A stretch of DNA of 13,492 nucleotides from assembly GCA_947459855.1 (NCBI GenBank), contig CANHFL010000006.1, positions 1 to 13,492 on the forward strand. Reading direction: 5' to 3'. The translations under genes were made by a program, and so were the position numbers. Below, piece by piece: positions 1,858-13,152 of the stretch. Source of the stretch: Planctomycetaceae bacterium (lineage in GTDB: Bacteria > Planctomycetota > Phycisphaerae > Phycisphaerales > SM1A02). Under the pieces are notes generated by a model. It did not search any database. It saw only the letters and a program-made list of their open reading frames with translations, and had not been told where the DNA came from. Position 1 is the first letter of the stretch. Each line of letters begins with the position of its first letter.

Positions 1858-2253
1858 GTGCAGCCGAACGCGCCGCCACCCGCCGGCACGACGCCGCGCT
1901 TCCTCGAGGCGCCGCCGATGCTCTACCAGCAGGCGTACGTGTGGACGGTCTTCCTGGCGGCGATGGACGTGATGCTGACGTGGCTGATCCTCTCGCGCTC
2001 GGGCGACGAGGTGAACCCGCTGGCGCGCCTGGTGATCGCCGAATGGGGAATGGCCGGCGCAAGCGCCTTCAAGTTCGCGCTGGTGATGTTCGCGATCGTC
2101 GCATGCGAACTGGTGGGGCGCCGGCGCCACGCCACCGGGAGGCGCCTGGCGACGGCGTGCGTCGCCATCAACGCGTTGCCCGTCACGTGGTCGCTGGTGC
2201 TGCTGGCCACCCACTGGGGCCACCTGCAGCAGCAGGGCGTGCAGCTGCAGTAG
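1858..2253 (+). CDS. DUF5658-like small integral membrane protein
   Basis: This is a 131-aa protein of unknown function. After a proline-rich N-terminal stretch of about 20 residues it shows three hydrophobic segments, at roughly residues 24-46, 62-83 and 96-117. The first contains D37 and T41 and is followed by D50-E51-V-N53-P54; this D..T...ExNP arrangement is what I associate with DUF5658. The GTG start is preferred because a -10-like TACGCT sits 6 nt upstream. An in-frame ATG at 1918 is an alternative that would remove the proline-rich leader but keep every membrane segment. It follows thiC on the same strand after 34 bp, but no role in thiamine metabolism is implied. Its last 71 bp overlap the 3' end of the convergent glycosyltransferase gene. 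Confidence 0.75.
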   Translation: MQPNAPPPAGTTPRFLEAPPMLYQQAYVWTVFLAAMDVMLTWLILSRSGDEVNPLARLVIAEWGMAGASAFKFALVMFAIVACELVGRRRHATGRRLATACVAINALPVTWSLVLLATHWGHLQQQGVQLQ

Positions 2254-3415
2254 GCGGGCGGTTGCGCGCGATCGTCTCGACGCGGGTGGCGACGTCGAAC
2301 GCGGCGCGCGGGCGGCCGAGCGCGGCGGCTGACGTGCGCATGGCGCGCAGGCGACGGGGGTCGGCCAGGATCGCGGCCACCGCCGTGCCGACGTCCTGCG
2401 GCCGGGGCACGCGGACCGCCGCGCCCGCACCGACCAGCGCACGCGCGTTCCGTTCCTCCTGGCCCGGGATCGGTCGCATCAGCACCATCGGCAGTCCCAG
2501 CGCGCGCGCCTCGGAGGTGGTGAGCCCGCCCGGCTTGCCGACCATCAGGTCCGACTCGGCCATCAGTTCGTGCATGCGGCCGGTCAGGCCGATCACGCGC
2601 AGCGAAGGTCGGCCGGGCCGGGCGGGCTGCGCGCCGGCCAGCGCGCGGAGCGCGCGCTCCAGGCCTTCGTTCTTGCCGCAGACGACCGTGATCGCCGCAT
2701 CGGCCGGCATCGCCAGCAGCGACGCGACCGCGCGGTCCATCCCGCCCAGGCCGTAGCCGCCGCCGCAGACCAGCACCTTCGGCCGGCCGTCCGGCGCGCA
2801 GGTCGGCTGCACCATGCAGAAGCGCGGGTCGATCGGGATGCCCGTCGCATGCACTCGCTCGGGGCGCAGGCCGGCGGCGATCGCGGTCTCGCGCGCCGCG
2901 CTCGACGCGACGCAGGTGGCGTCCGACCCGGGATGGATCCACGCCGAGTGCGGGTGCTCGTCGGTGACGACCGTGACGAGCGGCGCGTGCAGCTCGCCGC
3001 GCAGGCGCATTCGGCCGAGGACCGCGGTGGTCAGGAAGTGCGTCGAGAGCACCACGTCGGCGGCGTGCAGGTCTGCACGGGTGCGGAAGCGGCGCGTGAC
3101 GGCGTCCTCGACGCGGTCCAGGATGCCGGCAAGCATGCGGCGGTCGCGGGCGGGAACGTCGGCGGCGTCGTACATCGCCCCCACCAGCCACGGCATGTGG
3201 CGCACGGCGCGGAGGTAGCCGTCGTGATAGAGCACGCGGAACCAGGCCGGTGCGTCGTCAAGCACCTCCAGCAGCGTCGATTCGACCGGGCGGCCGCGCG
3301 ACGCGAGCGTCTCGGACACCGCCAGCGCGGCGCGCTTGTGGCCGCAGCCGACCGATGCCGCCGCCAGCACCACCCGCAGCGGGCGCCTCTCGGCGTGGAT
3401 GCGTTCGTCAGCCAT
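2183..3415 (-). CDS. GT28 family glycosyltransferase, MGDG synthase/UgtP-like
   Basis: This is a 410-aa GT-B glycosyltransferase of the family containing MurG, plant MGDG synthase and UgtP. The likely reaction moves a hexose from a UDP-sugar to diacylglycerol at the membrane. Visible motifs are the N-terminal acceptor-side loop SVGCGHKRAA (residues 21-30), TDEHPHSAWIHPGSD (151-165), the glycine-rich VCGGGYGLGG (216-225), VVCGKNEGLERAL (244-256) and the donor site KPGG (294-297) followed by PIPGQEERN (315-323). No signal peptide is seen. The ATG has AGGAGG 9 nt upstream and overlaps the stop of the preceding phosphoesterase gene by 8 bp, which implies coupled translation. The final ~25 residues are Ala/Pro/Gly-rich, are probably outside the fold, and are encoded opposite the 3' end of the DUF5658-like gene. 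Sugar and acceptor specificity cannot be read from sequence. Confidence 0.87.
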   Translation of the reverse strand: MADERIHAERRPLRVVLAAASVGCGHKRAALAVSETLASRGRPVESTLLEVLDDAPAWFRVLYHDGYLRAVRHMPWLVGAMYDAADVPARDRRMLAGILDRVEDAVTRRFRTRADLHAADVVLSTHFLTTAVLGRMRLRGELHAPLVTVVTDEHPHSAWIHPGSDATCVASSAARETAIAAGLRPERVHATGIPIDPRFCMVQPTCAPDGRPKVLVCGGGYGLGGMDRAVASLLAMPADAAITVVCGKNEGLERALRALAGAQPARPGRPSLRVIGLTGRMHELMAESDLMVGKPGGLTTSEARALGLPMVLMRPIPGQEERNARALVGAGAAVRVPRPQDVGTAVAAILADPRRLRAMRTSAAALGRPRAAFDVATRVETIARNRPPTAAARPAAAGGPSGWPAAPATT

Positions 3416-4226
3416 GGGCGGCGGCCTCCTGCAGGTCGATCGCCTCCTGCGGCTCCGCGGGGTCGGCTTCCCAGCCGATGGACGCGAGCAGCGCCGCGAC
3501 GTCGACGATCTCGAGCGTCCCGTTGGCGTGCTCGACCAGCGCCGTGGCCCGCTCGATCCAGTCGCCGCAGTTGGCGTAGGTCGTGCCGGTGGCCTCGTGC
3601 CGCGCGATGCGCGGGTCGTGGATGTGGCCGCACACCACGCCGTCGAGGCCGCGCCGCCGCGCTTCGGCGGCCAGTGCGTCCTCGAAGCGCGAGATGAACG
3701 TGCACGCGCCCTTGACGCGCTTCTTGATGGCGGCGCTGAAGCTCCAGCGCGGCAGGCCGACGATCCCGCGGGCGCCGTCGACCAGGCTGTTGAGCCCGAC
3801 CAGGCGGTCGTACGCCCACGTGCCGATCAGCGAGAGCAGGCGCGAGTTCTGCACCACCAGGTCGTACTCGTCGCCGTGCGAGACCAGGAACTGCCGCCCG
3901 TCCGCCATGGCATGCACGGCCTGGCGCGCGACGCGGATGCCCGCCAGGTCGATGCCGGCGTAGGGGCGGAGCGACTCGTCGTGGTTGCCCGGCACGTAGG
4001 TGATGACCGTGCCGCGCTTCGCGAGCTTCAGCAGCCGGCGCACCACCTGGTTGTGCGTGGCGGGCCACGTCCAGCGCTGCCGCAGCGCCCACATGTCCAC
4101 GATGTCGCCCACCAGGTACAGCCGCTCGCACTGCAGGCGCTTCAGGAACGCCGCGAATTCCTCGGCGCGCGCGCCGCGGAAGCCCAGGTGCACGTCGCTG
4201 ACGAAGACGGTCCGGTAGTGGAACAC
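3408..4226 (-). CDS. plcP: Calcineurin-like phosphoesterase, PlcP-type (COG2908)
   Basis: This is a 272-aa metallophosphoesterase. Metal-binding motifs appear in order: SDVHLG (D11, H13), VGDIVD (D41), PGNHDE (N81, H82), SHGDEYD (H117) and CGHIH (H201, H203). COG2908 includes LpxH (UDP-2,3-diacylglucosamine hydrolase of lipid A synthesis) and PlcP (phospholipase C of phosphate-starvation lipid remodelling in rhizobia). Features that recall PlcP are WTWPATHNQVVRRLL, KRGTVITYVPGNHDE, GTWAYDRL and YANCGDWIERATALVEH. The neighbour, a diacylglycerol glycosyltransferase-like gene overlapping by 8 bp, also favours PlcP. I start at the GTG because a strong GGAGGG lies 8 nt upstream and the first beta strand begins at once; an ATG 12 codons earlier lacks such a site. 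LpxH activity is the main alternative. I saw no Pho-box-like sequence upstream. Confidence 0.82.
   Translation of the reverse strand: MFHYRTVFVSDVHLGFRGARAEEFAAFLKRLQCERLYLVGDIVDMWALRQRWTWPATHNQVVRRLLKLAKRGTVITYVPGNHDESLRPYAGIDLAGIRVARQAVHAMADGRQFLVSHGDEYDLVVQNSRLLSLIGTWAYDRLVGLNSLVDGARGIVGLPRWSFSAAIKKRVKGACTFISRFEDALAAEARRRGLDGVVCGHIHDPRIARHEATGTTYANCGDWIERATALVEHANGTLEIVDVAALLASIGWEADPAEPQEAIDLQEAAAHG
3425..3430 (-). promoter_or_regulatory. Ribosome binding site of the GT28 gene
   Basis: AGGAGG on the minus strand, 9 nt before the ATG at 3415. It lies inside the end of the upstream phosphoesterase coding sequence and supports independent or coupled re-initiation at the overlapping start. 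Confidence 0.75.
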
Positions 4227-4234
4227 GGTCGATG

Positions 4235-4240
4235 CCCTCC
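4235..4240 (-). promoter_or_regulatory. Ribosome binding site deciding the GTG start of the phosphoesterase
   Basis: GGAGGG on the minus strand with an 8-nt spacer to the GTG at 4226. It is one of the strongest SD matches in the window and is the reason for choosing this start over upstream in-frame ATG codons, including the one at 4262. Confidence 0.72.
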
Positions 4241-4285
4241 GGGACCGCTGGCCGGGCCCCATGGCAGGCGCCGCATCCATGCATC

Positions 4286-4308
4286 GCCTGCGCGGATGAT
4301 GCGCAGGC
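4286..4308. repeat. Perfect 8-bp inverted repeat, possible hairpin
   Basis: GCCTGCGC, a 7-nt loop and GCGCAGGC, in the 185-bp gap between pepP and the phosphoesterase gene. A competing stem is possible between GCATC (4281-4285) and GATGC (4298-4302). There is no T-tract on either strand, so it is not a canonical intrinsic terminator. It could be a Rho-independent-like attenuator, an RNA processing or stability element, or a protein-binding palindrome. Confidence 0.5.
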
Positions 4309-4319
4309 AGGCCGCGTCC

Positions 4320-4337
4320 GGGCTGCAGGGGCAGCCC
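4320..4337. repeat. Perfect 7-bp inverted repeat with 4-nt loop
   Basis: GGGCTGC, loop AGGG, GCAGCCC, only 11 bp from the neighbouring hairpin in the same pepP-phosphoesterase gap. The two stems could form in tandem on the minus-strand transcript. No T-tract follows. The 185-bp gap (4227-4411) also contains no TA dinucleotide that I can find between 4262 and 4411, hence no TAnnnT box there, so the origin of the phosphoesterase transcript is unclear. Confidence 0.45.
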
Positions 4338-4411
4338 CCGCACGCGCGTGAGCGAACGGAACCCTCACCGAACCTTCATGAAGCGGGATTCCGGGCCCGT
4401 GCGGGCCGCCG

Positions 4412-5641
4412 TCAGCGCGCCGCCATCGCGCGCTCGACCTCGTCGGCGGTGCGCGGGATGCCGGGCGTCAGGATGCGCGGGCCGCTCGGGGTGACCTCGA
4501 CGTCGTCCTCGATGCGGATGCCGATGCGCTCCGCGGCGATGTAGATGCCGGGCTCCACCGTGACCACGGCGCCGGCCTCGAGCGGCGCGTCGGGCGATGC
4601 GTCGTGCGTGTCCAGGCCCAGGTGGTGGCCCAGGCCGTGGACCAGGTAGTCGCCGTAGCCCGCATCCGCGATGACCTTCCGGCCGGCGGCGTCCATGTCC
4701 GCCAGCGTCGCGCCGGGGCGCAGCGCGGCGATCGCCGCGGCCTGCGACGCCAGCACGATGTCGTAGAGCTCGCGCTGGCGCTTGCCGAACTTCCCGCCCA
4801 CGGGCAGCGTGCGCGTGACGTCGGCCGAGTAGCCGTTGAACTTCGCGCCGCTGTCCAGGACCACGAGCTCGCCCTCGCGCAGCGGCTGGTCGTTGGCGTG
4901 GTAGTGCAGGACGGTGGCGTTCAGGCCGCCGCCCGCGATGGTGCGGAACGCCAGCTCGCGCGCGCCGCCGGTGCGGTACGCGTGCTCGACGCACTCCTGC
5001 AGGTCGAACTCGTTCATGCCCGCCCTCAGGTGGCGCATGGCGGCGGCGAAGCCCAGCGCGGTGATGCGCCCTGCCTCGGCGATGCAGGCGACCTCGGCGG
5101 GGCTCTTGGCCGCGCGCATGCGGGGCAGCAGCTCCGAGCGGTCGGTGATGACGGTGCCCGGCACGCGCTCGGCCTGCTGGCGAAGGACCTGCAGGTCGCC
5201 CGAGACCGGCGAGCTGTAGCCCGAGAGCGGCATCAGGCACGCCAGGCTGCGTGAGCGCTTGGTGGCCTCCAGGAGCAGGCGCGGCAGCATGCCGGTGCGC
5301 AGCACGGTGTCGACGCCGGTGCGCTTCCGCAGCGCGCTGCCGATCTCGTCGCGCAGGCCGTCCCACTTCTCGACCTCGGGGTTCAGCGGCCGCAGGAGGA
5401 GCGTCGCGCGCTTGGCCGGCACGGGATTCCGCGGGTCCAGCAGCAGCATCGCGCCGGGCTCGTCGACGACGCCCGTCAGGTACGAGAAGTGCGCGTGCGG
5501 GTGCCAGGGGTGGTGCAGCGAGGGATCCGCCTCGCCGGCCAGCACCAGGCCGACGCTGCCCTCGAGCGCCGCCAGCAGGCGCTCGCGGCGGGCGCGGTAC
5601 TCGTCGTGCGTGATGGTCGGAAGGGCGGCGGGCGTCGTCAT
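4412..5641 (-). CDS. pepP: Xaa-Pro aminopeptidase (M24 family)
   Basis: This 409-aa cytoplasmic metallopeptidase removes an N-terminal residue preceding proline. The N-terminal AMP_N domain (about residues 10-145) is followed by the pita-bread catalytic domain (about 180-395). All five di-metal ligands of E. coli AMPP have counterparts: D263 and D274 (VLDSGAKFNGYSADVTRT), H339 (HGLGHHLGLDTHD), E363 (VTVEPGIYI) and E378 (GIRIEDD). Length and architecture are normal. The ATG overlaps the stop of the upstream RND permease as ATGA, suggesting translational coupling, yet a TACGAT box sits 6 nt before the same ATG, suggesting an additional leaderless transcript. No functional tie to efflux is evident, so this looks like a housekeeping gene sharing an operon. 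Confidence 0.95.
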   Translation of the reverse strand: MTTPAALPTITHDEYRARRERLLAALEGSVGLVLAGEADPSLHHPWHPHAHFSYLTGVVDEPGAMLLLDPRNPVPAKRATLLLRPLNPEVEKWDGLRDEIGSALRKRTGVDTVLRTGMLPRLLLEATKRSRSLACLMPLSGYSSPVSGDLQVLRQQAERVPGTVITDRSELLPRMRAAKSPAEVACIAEAGRITALGFAAAMRHLRAGMNEFDLQECVEHAYRTGGARELAFRTIAGGGLNATVLHYHANDQPLREGELVVLDSGAKFNGYSADVTRTLPVGGKFGKRQRELYDIVLASQAAAIAALRPGATLADMDAAGRKVIADAGYGDYLVHGLGHHLGLDTHDASPDAPLEAGAVVTVEPGIYIAAERIGIRIEDDVEVTPSGPRILTPGIPRTADEVERAMAAR

Positions 5642-8600
5642 GCGCCCATCGTATGCGCGCCCGCGTCGCCGGCGGGCGTGCCGGGTGCGCCGTCGCCGCC
5701 CGCATCCCCGCCGCCGGGACCAGGCTCGACGCCCCACATGCGCTCGCGGACGGTCTCCAGCAGCGCGTAGAAGACGGGCACGATCACCAGCGTCAGCAGC
5801 GTGGCCACGCTCAGGCCCACGAACACCGTGATGCCGATCGAGCGCCGCGCGTTGGCGCCCGCGCCGCCGGCCACCACCAGCGGCACGACGCCCAGCACGA
5901 AGCTGAACGCCGTCATCAGGATGGGGCGCAGGCGCAGCCGGGCCGCGTCCATCGCGGCCTGCAGCGGCGGCTTGCCTTCCTCGCTTCCCTGCTTGGCGAA
6001 CTCGACGATGAGGATGGCGTTCTTCGCCGCCAGGCCGATCAGCATCACCAGGCCGATCTGCGCGTAGACGTCGAGCGGCATGCCCATGACGTTCAGCCCC
6101 GCCAGCGCGCCGAGCGCCGCGAACGGCACGCAGATCACCACCAGGATCGGCAGCGTCCAGCTCTCGTACTGCGCGGCCAGGAACAGGAACACGGCGACGA
6201 TCGCCAGCGTGAAGACGATCGGCGCGGCGTTGGCGGACTTCAGCTCCTGGTACACGATGCCCGTCCAGTCGTAGCTGGTGCCGGCGGGCAGCACGCGGTC
6301 GCAGATCTCCTCCATCGCCGCGGTCGCGTCGCCCGAGCTGACGCCGGGCGCGCCGGCGCCGTTGATCGCGATGGTGTCGGTGACGTTGTAGTGCGTGATG
6401 TTGTCGGGGCCGACCGTGGTGCGCACCGTGCTGAACGCGTCGAACGGCACCTGGCCGCCGCGGTTGTTCATCACGTAGATGCGGCCGATGTCCTCGGGCT
6501 TCATGCGTGCGGGCGCGTCGGCCTGCACGTACACCTGGTAGACCTGGTTGAAGCGGTTGAACTGGTTGACGTACGCGCTGCCGAAGTTCAGCTGCAGCGC
6601 CGCGAACGCGTCGGCCACCGTCACGCCCAGCGACTGCAGCTTCACCCGGTCGATGTCCAGCCAGAGCTGGGGCACCGAGCGCTGGAAGAACGTGCTGACG
6701 CCCATCACCTTGTCGGGGTGCTGCGCGGCCTCCTGGACCACGCGGTCCACGGCCTTGGCCAGCGCGTCCACGCCCAGGCCGGCGCGATCGTTCACCTGCA
6801 GCTGGAAGCCGCCGACGTTGCCCAGGCCGGGGATCGCCGGCGGGTTGAACGCGAAGCAGTTGGCGCCCGCGACCGACCACAGCAGGGGCTGCAGGCGCTG
6901 CACGATCGCCGACGTGGTGTGGTCGCGGCCCGGGCGCGCCTTCCACTCCTTCAGCACGGGGATGAGCACTCCCGCGTTCGACTGCGGCGCGTTGGCCAGG
7001 AAGTTCAGCCCGTTGATCTCGATGATCGTCTCGACCTCGGGCTGCGCCTGCAGGATCGCGCGCGCCTCGGCGGCGATGCGGTCGGTGCGCTCGAGCGTGG
7101 CGCCCGCGGGCAGCTGGTAGGCCACGAAGAAGTAGCCGTTGTCCTCGTCGGGGATGAACGCGGTGGGCGTGCCGACCACCAGGAACATCGCCGCGGCGAT
7201 CGCGCCCGAGAAGATGCCGAGCGCCACCCACCAGCGCCGCACCAGCCACCCGACCATCGACTCGTAGGCGCGCTCGGTGCGCCCGAAGCCGCGGTTGAAC
7301 GCGCCGAACGGGCCCTTCTGCGCGATGTGCCGCGGGCGCAGGAAGATGGCCGCCAGCGCCGGGCTCAGCGTCAGCGAGTTCACGCCCGAGAGCACCACCG
7401 AGATGGCGATCGTCATGGCGAACTGGTTGTACAGCTGGCCGGTGATGCCTGGCATCAGCGCGGCCGGCACGAACACGGCCGCCAGCGAGAGCGTGGTGGC
7501 GATGATCGGTCCCGCGACCTCCTTCATCGCCTTGCTGGCCGCGGCGACGGGGTCCTTCTCGCCCTCCTCGAACTTGCGCTCGACGTTCTCGACCACGACG
7601 ATCGCGTCGTCGACGACCAGGCCGATCGCCAGCACCAGGCCGAGCAGCGTCAGCGTGTTGATGCTGAAGCCCATCGCCAGCATGACGGCGAACGTGCCGA
7701 TGATCGACACCGGGATCGCGATCATCGGGATCAGCGTGGTGCGGACGCTCTGCAGGAACACGAAGATGATCAGCAGCACCAGCACCGCGGCTTCCCAGAA
7801 GGTGCTGACGACCTCCTCGATCGAGGCGCTCACGAAGCGCGTGGTGTCGTAGTTGATGACGTAGGTGACGTCCTCGGGGAACGACTTCGAGAGGCGGTCC
7901 ATCGCCACCCGGATGCCCTCGGCCACCTGGAACGCGTTGGAGCCGGGCAGCTGGAAGATGCCCAGCAGCGCCGCTTCCTTGCCGTCCTGGCGGCCGTTGG
8001 TCGAGTACGTGGCCGAGCCAAGCTCGACGCGGGCGACGTCCTTCAGGAAGACGGTGCCGGTGTCCGGCCCCGAGCGCACGACGATCTGCTGGAACTGCTC
8101 CACCTGCTCAAGGCGGCCCAGCGCGTTGACCTGCATGGTGAAGGCGGGCTGCCCCGAGTACGGCGCCGCGCCGGCCTGTCCGCCGACCGCCTGGCGGTTC
8201 TGCTCGGCGATCGCCTTGTAGACCTCCTGCGGCTGGATGCGCAGCGCGGCCAGCTTGGCCGTGTCCATCCAGATGCGCATCGAGTACTGGTGCAGGCCGA
8301 AGTTCTGCACCTGCGACACGCCCGGGATGCGCTGCAGCGTCTGCACGACGTTGATGTCGGCATAGTTGCTCAGGAAGTCCGCGCTGTACGTGCCCTTCGG
8401 CGAGCGCAGGCCGACGACCTGCACGAAGTCGGTGCTCTGCTTGCGGACCGCGATGCCCTGCTGCTGCACCTCGGCGGGCAGCTGCGGGATGGCGGTCTGC
8501 GCGTAGTTCAGCACGTCGACCGCGCCGATCGACTGGTCGTAGCCGACGTCGAACGTGACGGTGATGACGCTGCTGCCGCCGTTCACCGAGTTGCTCGACA

Positions 8601-8832
8601 TGTAGATCATGCCGGGCACCCCGTTGATCTGCTTCTCGAGCGGCCGGGTGACGACGTTGCTGGTGACCTCGGCACTGGCGCCGGGGTAGTTCGCGGTCAG
8701 CTGCACCGTCGGCGGCGTGATCGACGGGAACTGCGCGACCGGCAGGATGGCCATCGACAGGCCGCCCGCGATCACCATCAGCAGCGCGATGACGGTCGCG
8801 AAGATCGGGCGCTTGATGAAGAAGTCGATCAT
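5638..8832 (-). CDS. RND efflux pump inner-membrane permease, HAE1 family (AcrB/MexB-like)
   Basis: This 1064-aa proton-driven exporter is the size expected for AcrB/MexB. The N-terminus MIDFFIKRPIFATVIAL is the classic first transmembrane start. Proton-relay residues are present: D408 and D409 in GLVVDDAIVVVENVER of TM4, and K937 in GLAAKNAILIVEFAK of TM10. Two large periplasmic loops (about residues 30-340 and 560-870) hold the porter and docking domains, and IPDEDNGYFF marks the second loop. Hydrophobic segments cluster at about 343-500, 535-556 and 870-1025. A Gly/Asp/Pro-rich tail of about 30 residues closes the protein. The start overlaps the fusion-protein stop by 4 bp (ATGA), with GAGGG 9 nt upstream at 8842-8846. 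The HAE1 type predicts hydrophobic or amphiphilic drug substrates rather than metals, but the substrate is unknown. Confidence 0.96.
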   Translation of the reverse strand: MIDFFIKRPIFATVIALLMVIAGGLSMAILPVAQFPSITPPTVQLTANYPGASAEVTSNVVTRPLEKQINGVPGMIYMSSNSVNGGSSVITVTFDVGYDQSIGAVDVLNYAQTAIPQLPAEVQQQGIAVRKQSTDFVQVVGLRSPKGTYSADFLSNYADINVVQTLQRIPGVSQVQNFGLHQYSMRIWMDTAKLAALRIQPQEVYKAIAEQNRQAVGGQAGAAPYSGQPAFTMQVNALGRLEQVEQFQQIVVRSGPDTGTVFLKDVARVELGSATYSTNGRQDGKEAALLGIFQLPGSNAFQVAEGIRVAMDRLSKSFPEDVTYVINYDTTRFVSASIEEVVSTFWEAAVLVLLIIFVFLQSVRTTLIPMIAIPVSIIGTFAVMLAMGFSINTLTLLGLVLAIGLVVDDAIVVVENVERKFEEGEKDPVAAASKAMKEVAGPIIATTLSLAAVFVPAALMPGITGQLYNQFAMTIAISVVLSGVNSLTLSPALAAIFLRPRHIAQKGPFGAFNRGFGRTERAYESMVGWLVRRWWVALGIFSGAIAAAMFLVVGTPTAFIPDEDNGYFFVAYQLPAGATLERTDRIAAEARAILQAQPEVETIIEINGLNFLANAPQSNAGVLIPVLKEWKARPGRDHTTSAIVQRLQPLLWSVAGANCFAFNPPAIPGLGNVGGFQLQVNDRAGLGVDALAKAVDRVVQEAAQHPDKVMGVSTFFQRSVPQLWLDIDRVKLQSLGVTVADAFAALQLNFGSAYVNQFNRFNQVYQVYVQADAPARMKPEDIGRIYVMNNRGGQVPFDAFSTVRTTVGPDNITHYNVTDTIAINGAGAPGVSSGDATAAMEEICDRVLPAGTSYDWTGIVYQELKSANAAPIVFTLAIVAVFLFLAAQYESWTLPILVVICVPFAALGALAGLNVMGMPLDVYAQIGLVMLIGLAAKNAILIVEFAKQGSEEGKPPLQAAMDAARLRLRPILMTAFSFVLGVVPLVVAGGAGANARRSIGITVFVGLSVATLLTLVIVPVFYALLETVRERMWGVEPGPGGGDAGGDGAPGTPAGDAGAHTMGA
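5648..5653 (-). promoter_or_regulatory. Predicted -10 box (TACGAT) inside the RND gene end
   Basis: TACGAT on the minus strand, 6 nt (GGGCGC) before the pepP ATG. It is embedded in the last codons of the RND permease gene, which read His-Thr-Met-Gly-Ala-stop. The spacing would give a leaderless pepP mRNA. It is predicted from geometry shared with other starts in the window. Confidence 0.5.
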
Positions 8833-9998
8833 CGGGCTGCGCCCTCGCCGGGGGCCTTCGCCTCGCCCTTGCCGGCGTCGTCGCCCGCCGGTGCCTTGCC
8901 CTGCATCATCTGCCGCATCTGGTCGGCGTCGACGGTCTTGGAGCCGTCGCGGAGCTTCTGCATGCCCTCGATGACCACGCGGTCATCGGGCTTGATGCCC
9001 TCGACGACCACGATGCCCGCGCCGCCGCGCGGGCCCGTGCGCAGCACGCGCTGGCGCGCGGTGCCGTCGGCCTCGAGCACCCACGCGGTCGCGGCGGCCG
9101 TCTCGTAGACGATCGCGGACTCGGGGATGGAGACGGCGCCCTTCAGCTCCTCGCTCGGGAAGCGCACGCTGACGTACGCGCCGGGGGCGATCGAGCGGTC
9201 GGGGTTCGGCACCTCGAGCCGCGCGCGGATGGTCGACGTGCCGGGCTCGACGGCGTTGTCGATGAACGCGACCTTGCCGGCGCGCTTCCAGTCGGCGCCC
9301 GGCATCGACGCCTCGGTGGCGGCGGCGCCGGACTCGGCCAGCCGGCGCAGCACGGGGATCTCGGCGGCCACGGGGCGGAACTCCACCCAGATCGGGTCCA
9401 GCTGCATGATGTTCGTCAGCCGCACCTGGCTGGTGACGTAGGTGCCGGGATCGACGTTGCTGTTGCTGATCTGGCCCTTGGCGGGCGAGGTGATGCGCGT
9501 GAAGGAGAGGTCGAGCTTCGCCTGGTCCAGCGTGGCCATCTTCGCCAGGCGGGCGGCGTCCAGCGCGCGCTCGTTCGCCACCAGCTGGTCGAAGTCCTGC
9601 TGCGAGATGGCCTGCACCGGCACCAGCGGCCGGTTGCGTTCCACCTTGACGTGGGCGTTCGCCAGGTCGGCCTCGACCTGCGCCAGGTCCGCCTTGGCGC
9701 GCTCGACCGCGATCGCGAACGGCCGCGGGTCGATCTCGTACAGGAACGCGCCCTCGTCCACCAGCTGGCCGTCGTCGAAGCCCTGCGAGTTCACCCAGCC
9801 CGCGACGCGCGAGAACACCTGGACCGTGCGCACGCTCAGCGTGTTGCCGGGGTAGTCGCGCCACACCGTCACGTCGGCGACGGTCGGCTTGACGGTGCGG
9901 ACCGGCGCGGGCGGCGGCCCGGCGGGCGCGGCAGGGGGCTTGGCGCAGCCGGCGGAAAGCGCGGCGGCGATGACGATCGTGGCGGTGGTCGTGCGCAT
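8829..9998 (-). CDS. RND periplasmic membrane fusion protein (AcrA/MexA-like lipoprotein)
   Basis: This 389-aa adaptor links the inner-membrane permease to the outer-membrane channel. The signal sequence ends in a lipobox L-S-A-G-C18, so the mature protein should be lipid-anchored in the periplasm. The order is typical: a first lipoyl half (VFSRVAGWVNSQGFDDGQLVDEG, about residues 61-85), an alpha-helical coiled-coil hairpin (about 95-155), a second lipoyl half (ITSPAKGQISNSNVDPGTYV, about 167-187), then beta-barrel and membrane-proximal domains. The last ~25 residues are charged and Ala/Gly-rich. It begins 25 bp after the outer-membrane factor gene with no obvious SD, and its stop overlaps the permease start. 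The clear context fixes its role. Confidence 0.94.
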   Translation of the reverse strand: MRTTTATIVIAAALSAGCAKPPAAPAGPPPAPVRTVKPTVADVTVWRDYPGNTLSVRTVQVFSRVAGWVNSQGFDDGQLVDEGAFLYEIDPRPFAIAVERAKADLAQVEADLANAHVKVERNRPLVPVQAISQQDFDQLVANERALDAARLAKMATLDQAKLDLSFTRITSPAKGQISNSNVDPGTYVTSQVRLTNIMQLDPIWVEFRPVAAEIPVLRRLAESGAAATEASMPGADWKRAGKVAFIDNAVEPGTSTIRARLEVPNPDRSIAPGAYVSVRFPSEELKGAVSIPESAIVYETAAATAWVLEADGTARQRVLRTGPRGGAGIVVVEGIKPDDRVVIEGMQKLRDGSKTVDADQMRQMMQGKAPAGDDAGKGEAKAPGEGAAR

Positions 9999-10023
9999 GG
10001 GGTGGGTGCGGCGGCTGCCGCGG

Positions 10024-11559
10024 TCAGCCGCCGGCGGGCGGCTGCGGCGCGTTGCCGTCGTGCGAGAGGAAGTCGTTGGCCGTGGGGGCGGGGTTGAACA
10101 TCCGCAGCTCCTCGATCGCCCTCGGCGCGGGCGTGGCGTCCCAGCCGCCGCCCAGCGAACGGTAGAGCTCGACGTAGTTCTGCGCGACGAGGCCCTCGGC
10201 CTGCGCCAGGCCGTCGCGGGCGCGGATCACCGTCTCCAGGTACTGCACCATGCGCGTGATGTCGATGGTGCCGGCCTCGAACTGGCGCGTCGCCAGGTCG
10301 TAGGCCTTTCCGACCGACACGCTCGCGCTGCGGTAGTTCGAGCGCACCTTGCCGGCCGAGGCCAGCACCGCGATCGCGGCGTCGACCTCGTTGACCGCAC
10401 GGACCGAGACCTGCTGGTAGCCGAGCAGCGCATCCAGCGCGGCGGCCTTCGCCTGCTTCTCGGCCGCCTGCGTGGCGCCCGTCAGGATGCTCATGAAGTT
10501 CCAGACGATGGCCGGGTTGGCCACGTAGGTCTGGTTGCGGCTGACGTCGCCCAGGTTGTCGAAGCTGGGCGTCTGCACGTTGAAGTAGCCCGTCAGGATG
10601 AACTTCGGCAGGTACGCGGACTGCGCGATGCCGATCCGCGCGTTGGCGGACTGCGCGCGTCGTTCGGCCGCGCGCACGTCCGGACGCCGCTGCAGCAGCG
10701 ACGCCGGCACGCCGACGGCCACCGGGACGTCGACCGTCGGCACGGGCTTCGGCTCCGCCAGCATGGCGCGCACCCGCGTCGGCGGCTCGGCCAGCAGGAT
10801 CGCGATGCCGGCTTCCTGGTTGGCGACCATCGCGTCGTAGCGCACGGCGTCGCCCTCGGCTGCGGAGCGGCGCGCGCGGATCTCGCCCAGCTCGACGTCG
10901 CTGGCCATGCCGTGCTTGACCTTCGCCTCGACGGCGGCCAGGAGCTTCGCGTAGCCGTCGGCCAGCTCTCGGTACGCGGCGCGCTGCGCCTGAAGCTGGC
11001 GGATGACGACGTAGGCGTTGGCGATCTCGGCGCGGATGCTCACCTGCGCGGCCGCATAGTCCTCGGCGCTGGCCTGCAGCGCGCTGACGCCGGCCTCGAT
11101 CTGGCGGCGCACGGAGCCCCAGACGTCCAGTTCCCACGTTGCCGATGCCATCGACCAGGTCCAGGTGTCGAAGCCGCTCCGCAGCGCGTCCACGTTGAGG
11201 ACGCCCAGCTGGTTGGCGTCGACGCGCCGGCGGGCATAGCCGATGCCGGTCGTGATGTCGGGGAACATCTTCGAGAAGTCGATCGTGTACTGCGCGCGGT
11301 ACGTCTCGACGCCCAGCAGCGCGCGGCGCAGGTCCAGGTTCTGCAGGTCCGCGCGGGCGATCAGCTCGTCCAGGACCGGGTCGTGGAACTGCGTCCACCA
11401 GGCCTCGGTGACCGGCTCGGCGGGGACGACGCCCTCGGGCAGCGGCGTGGCGAACTGCGAGGGCTGCGGCTGCTCGGCGGCGCGGTATTCGGGACCGATC
11501 GCGCAGCCGCCCGCGGCGGCGGCCACGGCGGCGAGCAGGGCCTTGGAAAGCGGGCGCAT
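10024..11559 (-). CDS. Outer-membrane efflux factor, NodT/OprM-type lipoprotein
   Basis: This 511-aa TolC-family channel forms the outer-membrane exit of the RND pump. The signal peptide ends at A-G-G-C19, followed by A-I-G-P-E-Y, the usual mature N-terminus of OprM/NodT lipoproteins. Family signatures include EAWWTQFHDPVLDELI, the first repeat (NLDLRRALLGVETYRAQY), QRRPDVRAAERRAQSANARIG, and a second repeat ending in YVELYRSLGGGWD. Length is slightly above the usual 460-490 owing to a Pro/Ala-rich C-terminal tail. It is the first gene of the pump operon, ahead of the fusion protein and permease; MFP-RND-OMF is the commoner order. The ATG has no SD but has a -10 box 6 nt upstream, so a leaderless mRNA starting with this gene is likely. 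Confidence 0.94.
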   Translation of the reverse strand: MRPLSKALLAAVAAAAGGCAIGPEYRAAEQPQPSQFATPLPEGVVPAEPVTEAWWTQFHDPVLDELIARADLQNLDLRRALLGVETYRAQYTIDFSKMFPDITTGIGYARRRVDANQLGVLNVDALRSGFDTWTWSMASATWELDVWGSVRRQIEAGVSALQASAEDYAAAQVSIRAEIANAYVVIRQLQAQRAAYRELADGYAKLLAAVEAKVKHGMASDVELGEIRARRSAAEGDAVRYDAMVANQEAGIAILLAEPPTRVRAMLAEPKPVPTVDVPVAVGVPASLLQRRPDVRAAERRAQSANARIGIAQSAYLPKFILTGYFNVQTPSFDNLGDVSRNQTYVANPAIVWNFMSILTGATQAAEKQAKAAALDALLGYQQVSVRAVNEVDAAIAVLASAGKVRSNYRSASVSVGKAYDLATRQFEAGTIDITRMVQYLETVIRARDGLAQAEGLVAQNYVELYRSLGGGWDATPAPRAIEELRMFNPAPTANDFLSHDGNAPQPPAGG

Positions 11560-12540: not shown

Positions 12541-13152
12541 TCAGCCGCGTGCCAGCGTTTCCAGCCGCGGAAGGACGTCGCCCGCCGTCGCGATCGGCGG
12601 GCTGGCCGGGACGCGCGCGATGCCCAGGCGCGTGCGCAGGTCGAAGCCCCAGGGGTCCACGCCGACGAGCAGCGGCTTCTCCAGGCGGTGCCCGCCGTGG
12701 CGCAGGGCCGCGGCCTCCAGCAGGTCGGTGCGGCCGGCATTCACCTGCTTGCAGAGCGTGGGCTCCTCCTCGGCGAACGCGTTCGCCCGCGTCAGCGCGA
12801 TGCCGTCGATGAAGCTGCCCCTGTAGCGCGCCGCGTCGATCGCGAACTTCGCCCAGCGGACGTCTGGCGGTTCGCCGTGGTAGATGCACCAGCGGTCGCA
12901 GAGCGCGCCCTCGGGGCCGTTCTCCTTGATCTCGGTGAGCGTCACCTGGAGCTCCAGCGAGTCCTCGCCGTCGTCGGGGAGCTCCAGCACGACGTCGATC
13001 GAGCGCAGCATGGAAACCATCACCGGCGCAACAAGCGCGCCGTCCGGGGCGGGCGCGACGCGGATCTCCACGCGGTCGCCGTCGAAGCGGATGCGGCCGG
13101 CCAGGTGCGCGCGCAGGAAGTCGTAGGCCTCGTCGATGATCGCTTCGGTCAT
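12541..13152 (-). CDS. Uncharacterised 203-aa protein
   Basis: I do not recognise this family. The protein is soluble in appearance, with no signal peptide or membrane segment and an acidic N-terminal half. It has an alternating strand-like pattern from residue 21 to about 76 (IRFDGDRVEIRVAP, VVLELPD, SLELQVTLTEI), a Cys pair C85-x3-C89 followed by YHGEP, a WAKFAIDAARYRG stretch (100-112), a third Cys at 134, and a C-terminal region containing LLVGVDPWGFDLRTRLG (161-177). Codon bias and length support a real gene. The ATG has no SD but has TACGAT 8 nt upstream, so a leaderless or nearly leaderless mRNA is likely. It lies between phhA (same strand, 90 bp downstream) and the divergent aroD. The location alone does not show a role in aromatic metabolism. 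Confidence 0.82.
   Translation of the reverse strand: MTEAIIDEAYDFLRAHLAGRIRFDGDRVEIRVAPAPDGALVAPVMVSMLRSIDVVLELPDDGEDSLELQVTLTEIKENGPEGALCDRWCIYHGEPPDVRWAKFAIDAARYRGSFIDGIALTRANAFAEEEPTLCKQVNAGRTDLLEAAALRHGGHRLEKPLLVGVDPWGFDLRTRLGIARVPASPPIATAGDVLPRLETLARG

Follow-up and report, generated by a model that had tools for sequence, protein, structure and literature searches.

A PlcP-type phosphoesterase gene overlapping a GT28 glycosyltransferase gene in a Phycisphaerales planctomycete: a probable phospholipid-to-glycolipid remodelling module

What do two overlapping planctomycete genes accomplish together when one encodes a phosphoesterase of COG2908 and the other a glycosyltransferase of family GT28? 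Where sources name the listed homologues of the phosphoesterase, they call them LpxH or UDP-2,3-diacylglucosamine diphosphatase (UDP, uridine diphosphate), that is, by the name of a lipid A enzyme. The window analysed here is a whole stretch of 13,492 nucleotides from a Planctomycetaceae bacterium of the order Phycisphaerales (contig CANHFL010000006.1, assembly GCA_947459855.1); many of the named homologues, though not all, agree with this placement. It is a complete contig of a metagenome-assembled genome of 1.63 Mb in 309 contigs, 69.7% complete. On its minus strand, a pepP-like gene is followed by the phosphoesterase gene and then by the GT28 gene. The pair is probably a translationally coupled module that remodels phospholipid into glycolipid, with a PlcP-type enzyme and a GT28 enzyme at the place of the GT4 glycosyltransferase Agt, whose gene comes after plcP in many other bacteria. 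In the pathway model described in the accessible parts of the literature, PlcP and then Agt convert phospholipid into diacylglycerol and diacylglycerol into glycolipid (PMC4796936, PMC8231724, PMC8528852). By its family, the window phosphoesterase would be a dimetal enzyme of the PlcP/LpxH2 type, hydrolysing membrane phospholipids, for example phosphatidylethanolamine or phosphatidylglycerol, to diacylglycerol and the phospho-head group. The GT28 enzyme, a protein of UgtP/monogalactosyldiacylglycerol (MGDG)-synthase type, would then, judging from its family and its fold, transfer at least one hexose from a UDP-sugar to diacylglycerol. The product would be a phosphorus-free glycolipid.

Both minus-strand reading frames lie where the original prediction had placed them, with the 8-bp overlap and the strong Shine-Dalgarno sequences it described (GGAGG and AGGAGG; Table 1), and translational coupling of the two genes is likely. 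When the genome was searched with each protein, the single match was the protein itself. The pair is more than chance, because each protein has thousands of homologues (with an E limit of 1e-3, at least 2805 and at least 5622 for the two) and relatives keep the same gene order.

In Pfam, the phosphoesterase is a Metallophos/Metallophos_2 protein. The full metal site claimed for it (D11, H13, D41, N81, H82, H117, H201, H203) is correct, as all eight residues are invariant in 52 aligned sequences, namely the window protein and 51 listed homologues. On the LpxH equivalog models it reaches 39.4 bits (TIGR01854, cut-off 190.35) and 49.9 bits (NF003743, cut-off 134). The controls score 389 and 364 bits (Escherichia coli LpxH) and 286 and 293 bits (Luteibacter LpxH) on the same two models, and the proteins of Sinorhizobium meliloti, Pseudomonas aeruginosa and Roseomonas score 33-55 bits. 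The phosphoesterase is 46% identical to the S. meliloti and 51% identical to the P. aeruginosa PlcP/LpxH2-type protein, and 24% identical to E. coli LpxH across 127 residues. LpxH is set apart from its relatives by an arginine in place of a histidine in the third block (PMC5016852, PMC3087551, both accessible in part), and the latter paper reports that lpxH2 of P. aeruginosa failed to rescue lpxH in E. coli. This block reads GNHD in the window protein, against GNRD in E. coli LpxH, and GNHD is found in 119 of the 120 homologues among the matches listed (the window's own record counted) as well as in all 43 locus homologues. In a maximum-likelihood tree of 58 rows, the two LpxH rows split from all others, including both PlcPs, at 100/100, and the branch between them is very long. 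Of the 120 listed homologues, 10 entered the trees, and locus L027 was left out of both the phosphoesterase and the GT28 tree as a presumed duplicate of L106. Among solved structures, LpxH is the nearest both in sequence and in fold; however, none of the PDB sequence matches is a solved PlcP, so this nearness says little. Judged by tree, model scores and motif together, the phosphoesterase is not LpxH, and the original prediction was right to warn of a misleading label.

The two reference proteins are taken as PlcP orthologues because of their neighbours and lengths. The S. meliloti protein (281 residues) would correspond to SMc00171, which we take to be the PlcP of that species, and the P. 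aeruginosa plasmid protein (270 residues) to PA3219. The S. meliloti gene stands beside a LuxR-type regulator and an N-acyl-homoserine lactone (AHL) synthase, and the P. aeruginosa gene beside genes for a glycosyltransferase and a tRNA-binding protein, neighbours that we take to be those of the plcP genes. Both lengths agree with those of the LpxH2 proteins quoted in the accessible part of PMC3087551. Three plasmid records of P. aeruginosa, L025 among them, hold a PlcP-like gene; in the one examined, the next gene encodes a glycosyltransferase, which matches the plcP-agt segment of the chromosome. The S. meliloti record (L022, CP090106.1, 3.72 Mb) is titled plasmid pSymB, and its genes for an AHL synthase, a LuxR-type regulator and a PlcP-like protein are presumably chromosomal; it is probably a mislabelled chromosome.

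The lipid A genes of the order point the same way. The check for another UDP-diacylglucosamine hydrolase in the genome turned up LpxI, whose LpxI_C domain lies at G000:C1:12741-13130 (E 2.2e-44; G000 is the window's own genome). LpxC and LpxI are each present in 119 of the 121 genomes of the order, this one included, and the phosphoesterase in 45. Since it is missing from most lipid-A genomes, the phosphoesterase cannot be the order's general hydrolase, and lipid A is, by gene content, served by LpxI.

The GT28 protein contains MGDG_synth (1.5e-22; 80.9 bits, cut-off 25) and Glyco_tran_28_C (2.1e-5) domains and has a GT-B fold similar to that of MGD1, which bears out the UgtP/MGDG-synthase character first proposed from motifs. 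The nearest sequence is a processive diacylglycerol glucosyltransferase, and the best matches by sequence and fold are diacylglycerol glycosyltransferases, ranked above MurG. On the equivalog models for diglucosyl diacylglycerol synthase, NF010135 and NF010134, it stays below the cut-offs (166.1 vs 500 and 114.8 vs 557 bits), and is thus not counted among the UgtP orthologues of Bacillus type.

How consistently do the two genes stay together? GT28 matches occur in 18 of the 121 genomes of the order, and 16 are strong (the weak ones, G074 at E 1.4e-4 and G076 at E 7.9e-5, were kept out). Both genes lie on one contig, at most 3.5 kb apart, in 14 of these 16 genomes, so the linkage to be looked for in relatives is there. 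Eight are direct pairs on one strand, led by the phosphoesterase (G000, G090, G051, G119, G059, G095, G105, G102), two have the order phosphoesterase-GT4(Agt)-GT28 (G072, G096), and four are convergent, with a GT4 gene beside the phosphoesterase in G048, G002 and G081 and without one in G060. In G103 the two genes are on separate contigs, and a GT4 gene adjoins the phosphoesterase. Fisher tests of co-occurrence, which ignore kinship and are descriptive, give p 6.5e-6 for the family (both genes in 11 genomes, GT28 alone in 1, the phosphoesterase alone in 3, neither in 21) and p 7.5e-7 for the order (both genes in 15 genomes, GT28 alone in 1, the phosphoesterase alone in 30, neither in 75). Where a strong GT28 match is missing, the surroundings of the phosphoesterase were examined in 19 of 30 genomes (20 loci). 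A GT4 gene stands beside it in eight of these loci (L122, L123, L128, L129, L131, L135, L136, L137), and neither GT4 nor GT28 in the other 12. One genome, G118, has two PlcP-like copies (L140, L141), neither of them adjoined by a GT4 Agt or GT28 match.

Strong Agt orthologues were found in two of 14 genomes searched, G072 and G096, and in none of the eight direct-pair genomes among the 14. The next best match, in G059, is 34% identical (E 2.5e-28), and the window's own genome, 70% complete, gave no Agt match. Because the direct-pair genomes are without a strong Agt orthologue and relatives carry plcP-GT4 or plcP-GT4-GT28, GT28 occupies the place of Agt in these genomes, as their gene content indicates. 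In the branch of G105, G072 and G096, the pair and the three-gene form are closely related, which suggests that Agt was lost there. In the window's own clade, every located member has the direct GT28 pair, and the tree gives no order of arrival for GT4 and GT28. Of the replacement originally proposed, the GT28 at the Agt position therefore stands; in this clade it may have displaced an ancestral Agt or may have been the earlier partner.

The pair is also found in changing surroundings. A backbone of unk203, PheH, pepP, DUF5658 and thiC is compact in G045, G108 and G023, where neither pair protein was matched. In the window the two genes separate pepP from DUF5658, and in G051, which shares its genus with G045 and G108, they separate DUF5658 from thiC. 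In G090, G119, G059 and G095, the backbone neighbours were not found in the 9-11.5 kb around the pair. Since the order of the pair is kept while its surroundings change, the two genes, on this comparison, appear to move as a unit.

Beyond the order, one scan of named genomes gave at least 569 GT28 loci. In nine of the best 80, a phosphoesterase of the PlcP-like family lies near the GT28 gene: three Phycisphaerales-type contigs from metagenome-assembled genomes (one of which, L027, is presumably the contig of G090 again), two other Planctomycetota, one Elusimicrobia, two of Betaproteobacteria type, and Methylobacter tundripaludum SV96 (L053), where a 408-residue gene of the major facilitator superfamily family lies between the two. 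In a GT28 tree of 94 rows, from which the truncated L121 was left out and which only the window's own record entered from the listed homologues, the pair-linked planctomycete genes fall into one clade of 20 rows (100/99), 18 of them linked. The Elusimicrobia, betaproteobacterial and Methylobacter genes lie outside it. The fewest linkage changes on this tree are seven; two of these depend on L030 and L085, where the contig stops close to the gene. Among 294 genomes sampled across the phylum, GT28 was matched in 152 and the phosphoesterase in 183, weak matches counted. Inspection by eye of the matches listed added two linked pairs to those of G000 and G002, one in G174 (74 bp between the genes) and one in G244 (GT28 leading, at about 1 kb), as well as G277 and G313 with the two genes about 9 kb apart. 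Tight linkage is thus mainly a trait of the order.

Phosphate control was approached by scanning 300 bp upstream of 34 phosphoesterase genes against 300 single-base shuffles each. The consensus was what we take to be the E. coli-type Pho box. Sites of 11/14 precede the genes of S. meliloti and P. aeruginosa (shuffle fractions 0.04 and 0.02), and low fractions are also seen for L108 (0.02), L070 (0.03) and L120 (0.04). The Roseomonas gene gives 9/14 at 0.77, so the scan itself is weak. The 34 upstream regions show no general Pho-box signal, and the alignment of the window's upstream region with those of seven relatives has no conserved block. The best site in the window, at about 4409-4426, is on the opposite strand and falls at the 3' end of the pepP-like gene. 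All 13 genomes searched, the window's own among them, have PhoU genes. In this analysis the phosphate-starvation link is the weaker part of the model.

Several observations weigh against a phospholipid-to-glycolipid module. The rooted 58-row tree puts the window clade beside, not within, the clade holding both PlcPs, although its root is set by two LpxH rows that are very distant, and the rooting is uncertain. In G008, of the same genus, the phosphoesterase was not matched, and GT28 is present only as a C-terminal half between pepP and thiC. Strong GT28 matches are missing from 30 of the 45 phosphoesterase genomes of the order, and for 71 of the 80 named GT28 loci the surrounding DNA shows no phosphoesterase of this family, where contigs are short and some linkages were missed. 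The phylum sample added few linked pairs. Finally, the window has no Pho box by the E. coli-type consensus, which may not be that of the host (best site 10/14, shuffle fraction 0.08). The GT28 remnant of G008 (L121, about 5650-6345) represents either gene decay or an assembly break.

Some of these points suit a different use of the same enzymes: instead of answering phosphate starvation, they would serve the constitutive turnover of membrane lipids or the housekeeping synthesis of glycolipids. The missing Pho box, the patchiness of the pair in the order and an incomplete genome known from genes alone all fit such a role. It is nevertheless unlikely, as the PlcPs described in the accessible parts of PMC4796936, PMC8528852 and PMC9239053 act under phosphate limitation, PhoU is encoded in every genome searched, and a phosphate-response site of another type would escape the consensus used. 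It is quite improbable that the GT28 enzyme acts on another lipid acceptor, for example polyprenol or hopanoid, and is linked to a PlcP-like phosphoesterase for another reason. MurG is also a GT28 enzyme, the Glyco_tran_28_C and TIGR01133 (murG) models score weakly, and most of the best 80 named loci lack the phosphoesterase. However, the N-terminal MGDG_synth domain is far above its cut-off, diacylglycerol glycosyltransferases outrank MurG by sequence and by fold, and GT28 genes paired with plcP occupy several separate parts of the tree. That the phosphoesterase is the organism's LpxH, the lipid A UDP-2,3-diacylglucosamine hydrolase, beside an unrelated GT28 gene can hardly be upheld and is largely refuted. 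The shared COG, the source names, the LpxH structures nearest to it and an LpxC gene in the genome speak for this identity, but the protein falls short of both equivalog cut-offs, the LpxH arginine is missing, LpxI is present, the PDB matches offer no PlcP for comparison, and 76 of the order's 121 genomes gave no match to the phosphoesterase, with LpxC present in 119. The coupled module of PlcP-type phosphoesterase and GT28 glycosyltransferase is the reading that we consider probable.

The features of the pair and its upstream region are collected in Table 1. A three-gene resistance-nodulation-division (RND) efflux system (permease, adaptor and outer-membrane factor) occupies window positions 5638-11559 (minus strand), between pepP and a phenylalanine hydroxylase gene; it is not between these genes in G045, G108 and G023. 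A 203-residue protein without NCBIfam match is encoded at 12541-13152 (minus strand) and adjoins the phenylalanine hydroxylase gene in relatives, with 43-56% identity. The incomplete open reading frame at the contig end (13158-13492, plus strand) resembles by eye a type I 3-dehydroquinate dehydratase, as a candidate. The DUF5658 gene (1858-2253, plus strand), directly after thiC on the same strand, was considered as a third component and rejected: it is found in 20 of 25 genomes searched, in one clear copy each, and adjoins thiC in G045, G108, G023 and G041 without the pair beside it.

Table 1. Positions of the gene pair and adjoining features in the window.
Feature	Position	Strand	Remark
GT28 glycosyltransferase gene (MGDG_synth + Glyco_tran_28_C), 410 aa, ATG start	2183..3415	-	predicted UDP-sugar:diacylglycerol glycosyltransferase
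Overlap of both reading frames, 8 bp (phosphoesterase stop counted in)	3408..3415	-	tight junctions in relatives too
plcP-like gene, COG2908 metallophosphoesterase (LpxH2/PlcP group), 272 aa, GTG start	3408..4226	-	predicted phospholipase C-type, diacylglycerol-releasing
Shine-Dalgarno AGGAGG, 9 nt ahead of the GT28 ATG at 3415	3425..3430	-	within the phosphoesterase frame
Gap between pepP-like gene and phosphoesterase gene	4227..4411	-	probable promoter/leader, without convincing Pho box
Shine-Dalgarno GGAGG, 9 nt ahead of the phosphoesterase GTG at 4226	4236..4240	-	
pepP-like gene	4412..5641	-	upstream of the pair

In the literature searched, with many subscription journals outside its reach, PlcP was not found together with MGDG synthase, ugtP or diacylglycerol glucosyltransferase. 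The accessible parts of PMC8231724, PMC11837527 and PMC12981677 do not describe a planctomycete plcP-GT28 pair, and PMC6461901, on freshwater planctomycetes, contains no lipid term. As far as this search shows, the direct overlapping planctomycete pair, the alternation of GT28 and Agt as partner and the recurrence in several lineages are new. A wider proposal is possible, if somewhat doubtful: a UgtP-type GT28 may have come into use instead of Agt in the PlcP pathway several times independently (in Phycisphaerales, Elusimicrobia, Betaproteobacteria and methanotrophs), with the pair moving as one unit from one genomic site to another and the planctomycete product being a processively glycosylated, neutral, phosphorus-free lipid, unlike the monoglucosyl or glucuronosyl lipids of plcP-agt bacteria. 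If the module is real, phospholipid-to-glycolipid remodelling reaches a mostly uncultured planctomycete group, and genes labelled LpxH have another case outside lipid A synthesis (119 of the 120 listed homologues have the PlcP-type GNHD). Unrelated glycosyltransferase families could then serve the second step, so surveys for plcP-agt alone would miss such pairs. The pair offers a concrete test object for the lipidomics of phosphorus-poor waters.

Among known systems, LpxH shares the COG2908 fold and the dimetal site with the window phosphoesterase, which differs in its third-block histidine, its scores far under the family cut-offs and the LpxI of its genome. From UgtP/YpfP, the processive diacylglycerol beta-glucosyltransferase, and plant MGD1, the window GT28 differs in remaining under the diglucosyl diacylglycerol synthase cut-offs. 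Another close relative is the plcP-agt operon (SAR11, Phaeobacter, P. aeruginosa PA3219-PA3218 and Methylosinus, with PlcP of S. meliloti and Agt of Agrobacterium tumefaciens), in which a COG2908 PlcP-type gene likewise stands directly before a same-strand lipid glycosyltransferase gene, and the window phosphoesterase is 46-51% identical to two such PlcPs. The window differs in its planctomycete host, in having no visible Pho box and in its partner, a GT28 of UgtP/MGD1 type and not a GT4 Agt. The combination of plcP with a lipid glycosyltransferase is itself known, in about six types of neighbourhood in the accessible part of PMC4796936. A putative Bacillus subtilis-type diacylglycerol glycosyltransferase near plcP is in print for Methylobacter tundripaludum and Crenothrix (PMC9239053, accessible in part), and we read this enzyme as a UgtP-type GT28. 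On this reading, these methanotrophs share with the window a PlcP with a GT28 partner (L053 being strain SV96). In M. tundripaludum, however, the two genes are 1.7 kb apart and the GT28 belongs to another branch of the tree, whereas the window genes overlap directly.

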